Below, piece by piece: positions 16,888 through 17,043 of a stretch of 64,000 nt of DNA (position 1 is its first letter; every line of letters begins with the position of its first letter). Under the pieces are notes generated by a model. The model searched no databases, was not told the DNA's origin, and saw nothing but the letters and a program-made list of their open reading frames with translations. Source of the stretch: Molossus alvarezi (Eukaryota > Chordata > Mammalia > Chiroptera > Molossidae). Location of the stretch: positions 104,363,890 to 104,427,889 of the forward strand of contig CM073889.1 of the NCBI GenBank assembly GCA_037176705.1, read 5' to 3'. The translations under genes and the position numbers were made by a program.

Positions 16888-17043
16888 CTGTCGTGAGCGC
16901 CATTCCGGTGCCAACCCTAGAAAGTGCCCAGTACCCAGGGATCCTGCCATCGCCCACGTGTGGATACCCCCACCCACAGTTCACTCTCCGGCCCGTGCCC
17001 TTCCCGACGCTGTCCGTGGAGCGAGGTTTCGGAGCAGGAAAAA
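16888..17043 (+). CDS. DCC: DCC netrin receptor, exon carrying the caspase-site region
   Basis: A 156-base exon (2 + 153 + 1), acceptor gtgttgcag. The donor that keeps the frame is AAAA|gtcagt at 17044. It encodes [20 protein letters not shown], then [32 protein letters not shown] and the first base of a Thr codon. By alignment it carries the tyrosines of human Tyr1261 (16932-16934) and Tyr1272 (16965-16967), and Ser1267 in a Ser-Pro motif (16950-16952), reported phosphorylation sites. The position of human Asp1290, the published caspase-3 site in the LSVD motif, reads GAG (Glu) at 17019-17021. A second donor-like point six bases downstream would restore the human Ser-Gln insertion but would need a GC donor. 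The exon is Pro-rich and probably disordered. It ends in phase 1. Confidence 0.96.

Follow-up and report, generated by a model that had tools for sequence, protein, structure and literature searches.

The bat Molossus alvarezi carries an intact 3' end of the DCC gene in which the P1 residue of the reported caspase site is glutamate instead of aspartate. This gene end lies in a stretch of 64,000 nucleotides that we refer to as the window (GenBank assembly GCA_037176705.1, contig CM073889.1, positions 104363890-104427889, forward strand). We think that the change is probably a recurrent, conservative and largely tolerated exchange between Asp and Glu, private to this species or to a small lineage.

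Six 3' exons of DCC were found on the + strand of the window by tblastn with the human protein. The first of them (5547..5773) codes for part of the cytoplasmic tail with 91% identity to the human sequence and ends in STSHS and a split Gly, as read from its splice bases. It is followed by tail exons at 7150..7266 (QDTEEAGSS to SNNP), 16888..17043 (residues 1246-1297), 24838..25050 (ending in LLSQP) and 51289..51431 (ending in EDPAN), and by the last coding exon at 54181..54270, which ends in TGSAF and a TAA stop. The assignment of the exon at 16888..17043 is based on tblastn, alignment and the Pfam family Neogenin_C (PF06583), that of the other four on tblastn, splice bases and the joined frame. 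The 16888..17043 exon contains the caspase site and the larger part of residues 1243-1264, which are reported to be pro-apoptotic. It is bordered by an AG acceptor and a GT donor (GTCAGT, 17044..17049) and joins in frame with the other five exons. Joined in order, the six exons encode an uninterrupted tail of 314 residues followed by the stop, and this tail matches PF06583 over its full length (E 9.5e-115). The Neogenin_C tail, the order of the exons and the open frame identify the gene as the orthologue of the netrin receptor DCC. In the alignment of 123 rows described below, the row nearest to the tail is that of Bos (96% identical). The exon with the caspase site matches only once at E <= 0.001 across the 2.5-Gb assembly.

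Just behind this exon, positions 17044-17055 may hold tandem donors, GTCAGT and then, six bases on, GC (17050-17051). Reading through the first would add the codons Ser-Gln, and the second would need to act as a GC donor. The listed DCC proteins differ by two residues at this exon end: the rows of Macaca, Rattus and Nyctereutes have SQ, and those of Kogia, Bos, Lynx, Hipposideros larvatus and Phyllostomus discolor have TV without SQ. Since the rows are single isoforms, the presence or absence of SQ need not be a species difference. Elsewhere in the window, the open frames 33496-34111 (+) and 43380-43998 (-) are presumably pieces of LINE-1 ORF2, judging by their look. Translations recur among the frames 12423-12767 (-), 19549-19896 (+), 44732-45064 (+) and 59415-59762 (-), which are therefore apparently copies of one short repeat that we take to be a bat-type SINE.

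The codon at 17019..17021 (+) reads GAG, glutamate, in the open frame of this well-formed exon, in line with the original prediction. Human DCC is 1447 residues long, with LSVD ending at residue 1290. Named DCC proteins of the database agree with this register; in mouse (P0007), for example, LSVD lies 157 residues from the C-terminus. The human protein and the named proteins both place the codon at human Asp1290, the residue to which it had been assigned, and the site reads LSVE/R. Within the conserved block 1231-1296, residue 1290 is the sole difference from the human sequence, and it falls exactly on P1. Residues 1243-1264 (22 residues), reported as required for killing by DCC (PMC1866245), are identical, and the P1 change therefore stands alone there. 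Should cleavage have moved to another Asp, the candidates would be those that the tail retains at 1147, 1152, 1172, 1177, 1209, 1239, 1415, 1423 and 1424. A second Asp to Glu difference from the human protein is present in the exon at 5547-5773, at residue 1185 (SCQDLTP to SCQELTP). This Glu1185 is common to the window and the Phyllostomus row, is absent from the Hipposideros row and occurs in 18 of 123 rows; as a sign of kinship with Phyllostomus it is weak at most.

The comparison across vertebrates is based on 159 database proteins (P0003-P0161). With human DCC as the query, the best 120 of 1416 matches were obtained, with more distant relatives outside the sample, and a search with a shorter piece gave 42 proteins, three of which were already among the earlier matches. 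Searching with the exon 16888-17043 alone gave one fragment of 79 residues with Asp at the site. After keeping one protein per species or paralogue, 121 remained, which together with the window and the human protein make 123 rows. The 38 rows dropped comprise 29 that are additional isoforms, copies or subspecies of species already represented, five unnamed sequences (P0123, P0138, P0143, P0160 and P0161) and four rows gapped at the site (P0147, P0152, P0156 and P0157). Before this reduction the alignment had 161 rows, with Asp in 140, Glu in 15, a gap in four and Thr in two at position 1290; the Thr rows are the unnamed P0160 and P0161, and P0160 is without the motif. The database is clustered at 90% identity and shows one representative per cluster, which leaves most mammals and bats outside the sample. 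For one cluster of 722 members, perhaps including other bats, the representative is an armadillo protein with Asp.

Among the matches listed, position 1290 is Asp in 111 of the 123 vertebrate rows and Glu in 12, with no other residue. Besides the window, Glu is found in 11 of 122 rows, all from non-mammalian vertebrates: Pseudonaja (snake), Lissotriton and Ambystoma (salamanders), Leptobrachium (frog), Cuculus (cuckoo), Protopterus (lungfish), Lepisosteus (gar), Polypterus and three teleost rows (a second copy in Scleropages, Pseudoliparis and Knipowitschia). The P1' residue is Arg in 11 of the 12 Glu carriers and His in one. A quick tree built without column 1290 requires at least 11 changes between Asp and Glu for the 123 rows, and at least eight once six long or doubtful rows are removed (117 rows; three of the six are the teleost Glu rows), counts that are rough because support for the tree is weak (19 of 113 inner branches starred). 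In the 117 rows, the remaining acidic columns require between zero and nine such changes. Position 1290 swaps Asp and Glu about as often as those acidic positions of the tail that change most; the site is kept acidic in all 123 rows, and they give no sign of an Asp-specific hold. The Glu-bearing DCC proteins of salamanders, snake, cuckoo, gar and lungfish (P0078, P0085, P0077, P0119, P0101 and P0092) have the same residue at the same site as the window, but in other lineages and, on the rough tree, mostly from separate origins. Both salamander proteins (P0078 and P0085) have Glu, and the Glu state may thus persist in a lineage.

Among the 27 mammalian rows of the matches listed, the window alone has Glu; all 26 others have Asp, so that the widespread mammalian Glu which would have counted against the original prediction is absent from this sample, and Glu as a common mammalian state at this position was rejected. 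The site reads LSVD in Hipposideros larvatus (P0013) and in Phyllostomus discolor (P0127), the only two other bats sampled. A trait shared by bats is therefore unsupported, and a bat-wide adaptation was discarded on these two species. Since Glu recurs in non-mammalian vertebrates, an adaptive bat story is also unnecessary. From the Asp in two bats and 24 other mammals, we infer that Glu arose on the branch to Molossus alvarezi or to a small group of its relatives. As the site is invariant in the other mammalian rows, Asp may be kept more strictly in mammals than elsewhere among the vertebrates.

How the exchange would affect cleavage can be judged from published work. In general, the P1 Asp of caspase sites is highly conserved (92% of orthologous sites), its substitution mostly prevents or slows cleavage, and among the vertebrate counterparts of human caspase sites about 5% have Glu at P1, against 3% in mammals (PMC7225963). 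These P1-Glu orthologues resemble the DCC of the window in having an Asp/Glu exchange at a reported P1. They differ in that the latter is a dependence receptor, and the main text of that study does not name DCC. With DEVD-type peptides, the Glu/Asp ratio of kcat/KM for caspase-3 is reported as 0.11 with Gly at P1', 0.012 with Ala and 0.006 with Ser, i.e. a penalty of 9-fold (Gly) to about 170-fold (Ser) (PMC5322338). For Glu substrates caspase-3 strongly favours Gly at P1', with Ala in second place at about 15% of the activity with Gly, and P1 Glu is disfavoured by caspase-3 and caspase-7 alike unless Gly follows it. The loss with P1' Gly is 500-fold for caspase-8, 7-fold for caspase-9 and 15-fold for caspase-10 (PMC5322338). 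At the DCC site of the window P1' is Arg, not Gly, and LSVE/R is therefore probably cut poorly; as Arg is missing from the kinetic table of PMC5322338, this is an extrapolation from the peptides, and Arg must affect the Asp form too. By these kinetics, caspase-3 would probably cleave LSVE/R far less well than LSVD/R. The expectation that caspases prefer Asp and cut Glu worse is borne out by the peptide data, which makes a weakened cut in this bat plausible. DCC death output in low netrin may drop in this animal if LSVE/R is poorly cut.

The D1290N mutation is reported to block DCC-induced death and to spare positive or prosurvival signalling (PMC4510695, PMC5770412). Knock-in mice with D1290N, kept to 19 months, were prone with age to B-cell lymphoid hyperplasia and lymphoma (PMC4734837). 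As mice with the uncleavable receptor are tumour-prone, a weaker cut would predict more tumours, not fewer. The proposed link to tumour resistance was rejected, its direction being wrong. Of the earlier interpretation, the site and the direction of the biochemical effect stand, and the bat trait and the tumour resistance fall away. The caspase-resistant D1290N mouse (Castets et al. 2012, via PMC4734837 and PMC4510695) has the same residue changed as the window, with a fall in cleavage predicted here. However, the mouse carries an engineered Asn, whereas the bat carries a natural Glu that is poorly but possibly cleavable. Independent losses of the whole DCC gene are reported for galliform and for passerine birds (PMC5327424), which makes DCC dispensable in some vertebrates. 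Among the matches listed in literature searches on the DCC site, D1290 and bats, there was no published account of Glu at DCC 1290. A search for DCC and netrin in bats together with positive selection or longevity found no paper, and one for dependence receptors and caspases in bats found only work that was unrelated, judging by the titles. The text of PMC13071377 is without the terms 'glutamate', 'glutamic acid' and 'P1 position', and the matches to 'deve' shown from it are words like 'development' and 'developed'. The text of PMC5327406 makes no mention of caspase, dependence receptor, apoptosis or cytoplasmic domain.

Several explanations, which overlap and are not exclusive, so that their likelihoods do not sum to one, can be weighed against these data. 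An assembly error or a private variant of the sequenced individual would be compatible with a single assembly in which one copy is seen. We regard it as very unlikely: no repeat lies at the codon and no long homopolymer runs across it, the assembly is contiguous (2.5 Gb in 285 contigs), the flanking exons are intact, and other species carry Glu independently. A polymorphism would nonetheless fit these points. It could also be that the acidic residue is kept for a job unrelated to cleavage, such as the charge, the binding or the folding of a conserved linear motif, for which Asp and Glu would be equal, the caspase cut being a by-product. The acidic residue in 123 of 123 rows, the frequent swaps amid mostly well conserved flanking residues and the Arg kept at P1' in 11 of the 12 Glu carriers fit such a role, which is also compatible with the tolerated exchange that we favour. 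However, once the site is mutated, death is blocked both in cells and in mice (PMC4734837, PMC4510695, PMC5770412). A column restricted to acidic residues fits retained weak cleavage as well, because caspases can still cut Glu. On balance we doubt this explanation, while taking it as a real possibility.

Functional weakening, which partly overlaps our preferred explanation, would mean that Glu makes DCC resistant to caspase-3, with guidance kept and ligand-withdrawal death lost as in the D1290N mouse, and that this matters for the animal. The unfavourable combination of P1 Glu with a non-Gly P1' for caspase-3 and -7, the selective effect of D1290N and the unchanged 1243-1264 stretch all speak for it. 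Nevertheless we find it rather unlikely. The kinetics come from peptides other than LSVE/R, and Asp to Asn differs from Asp to Glu. The penalty for Glu also varies with the caspase, as the figure for caspase-9 illustrates, and some cutting of Glu persists, at a rate about twofold slower, a figure that PMC7225963 gives with reference to Seaman et al. 2016. Cleavage of DCC at 1290 was obtained with caspase-3 in vitro, and the protease in vivo may be another (PMC2361483). Finally, nothing indicates an effect on the animal. The tolerated, lineage-restricted exchange remains our preferred explanation: as the site is acidic in every row and swaps Asp and Glu frequently, the swap is most likely tolerated and near-neutral. 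Against it speak the position of the change, exactly on P1 in an otherwise unchanged block, the Asp of all other mammalian rows and the high conservation of P1 Asp in PMC7225963. An animal could live with even a reduced death output, and a strong cut at 1290 may be missing from several vertebrate lineages.

A bolder proposal is that in vertebrates nature has repeatedly weakened the cut by which DCC triggers death, through Asp to Glu at this one residue, uncoupling guidance from killing while the receptor is kept. Molossus alvarezi would then provide an instance among mammals, and evolution could do without the dependence-receptor arm of DCC. We consider this unlikely. Whether LSVE/R is cut or not, a link to bat longevity is unsupported. 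Should it be cut well enough, the case would be a warning against reading a one-residue change at P1 as lost function. If it is uncut, natural separation-of-function alleles of DCC would have been made several times, and these would test the killing role of this receptor beyond engineered mice.
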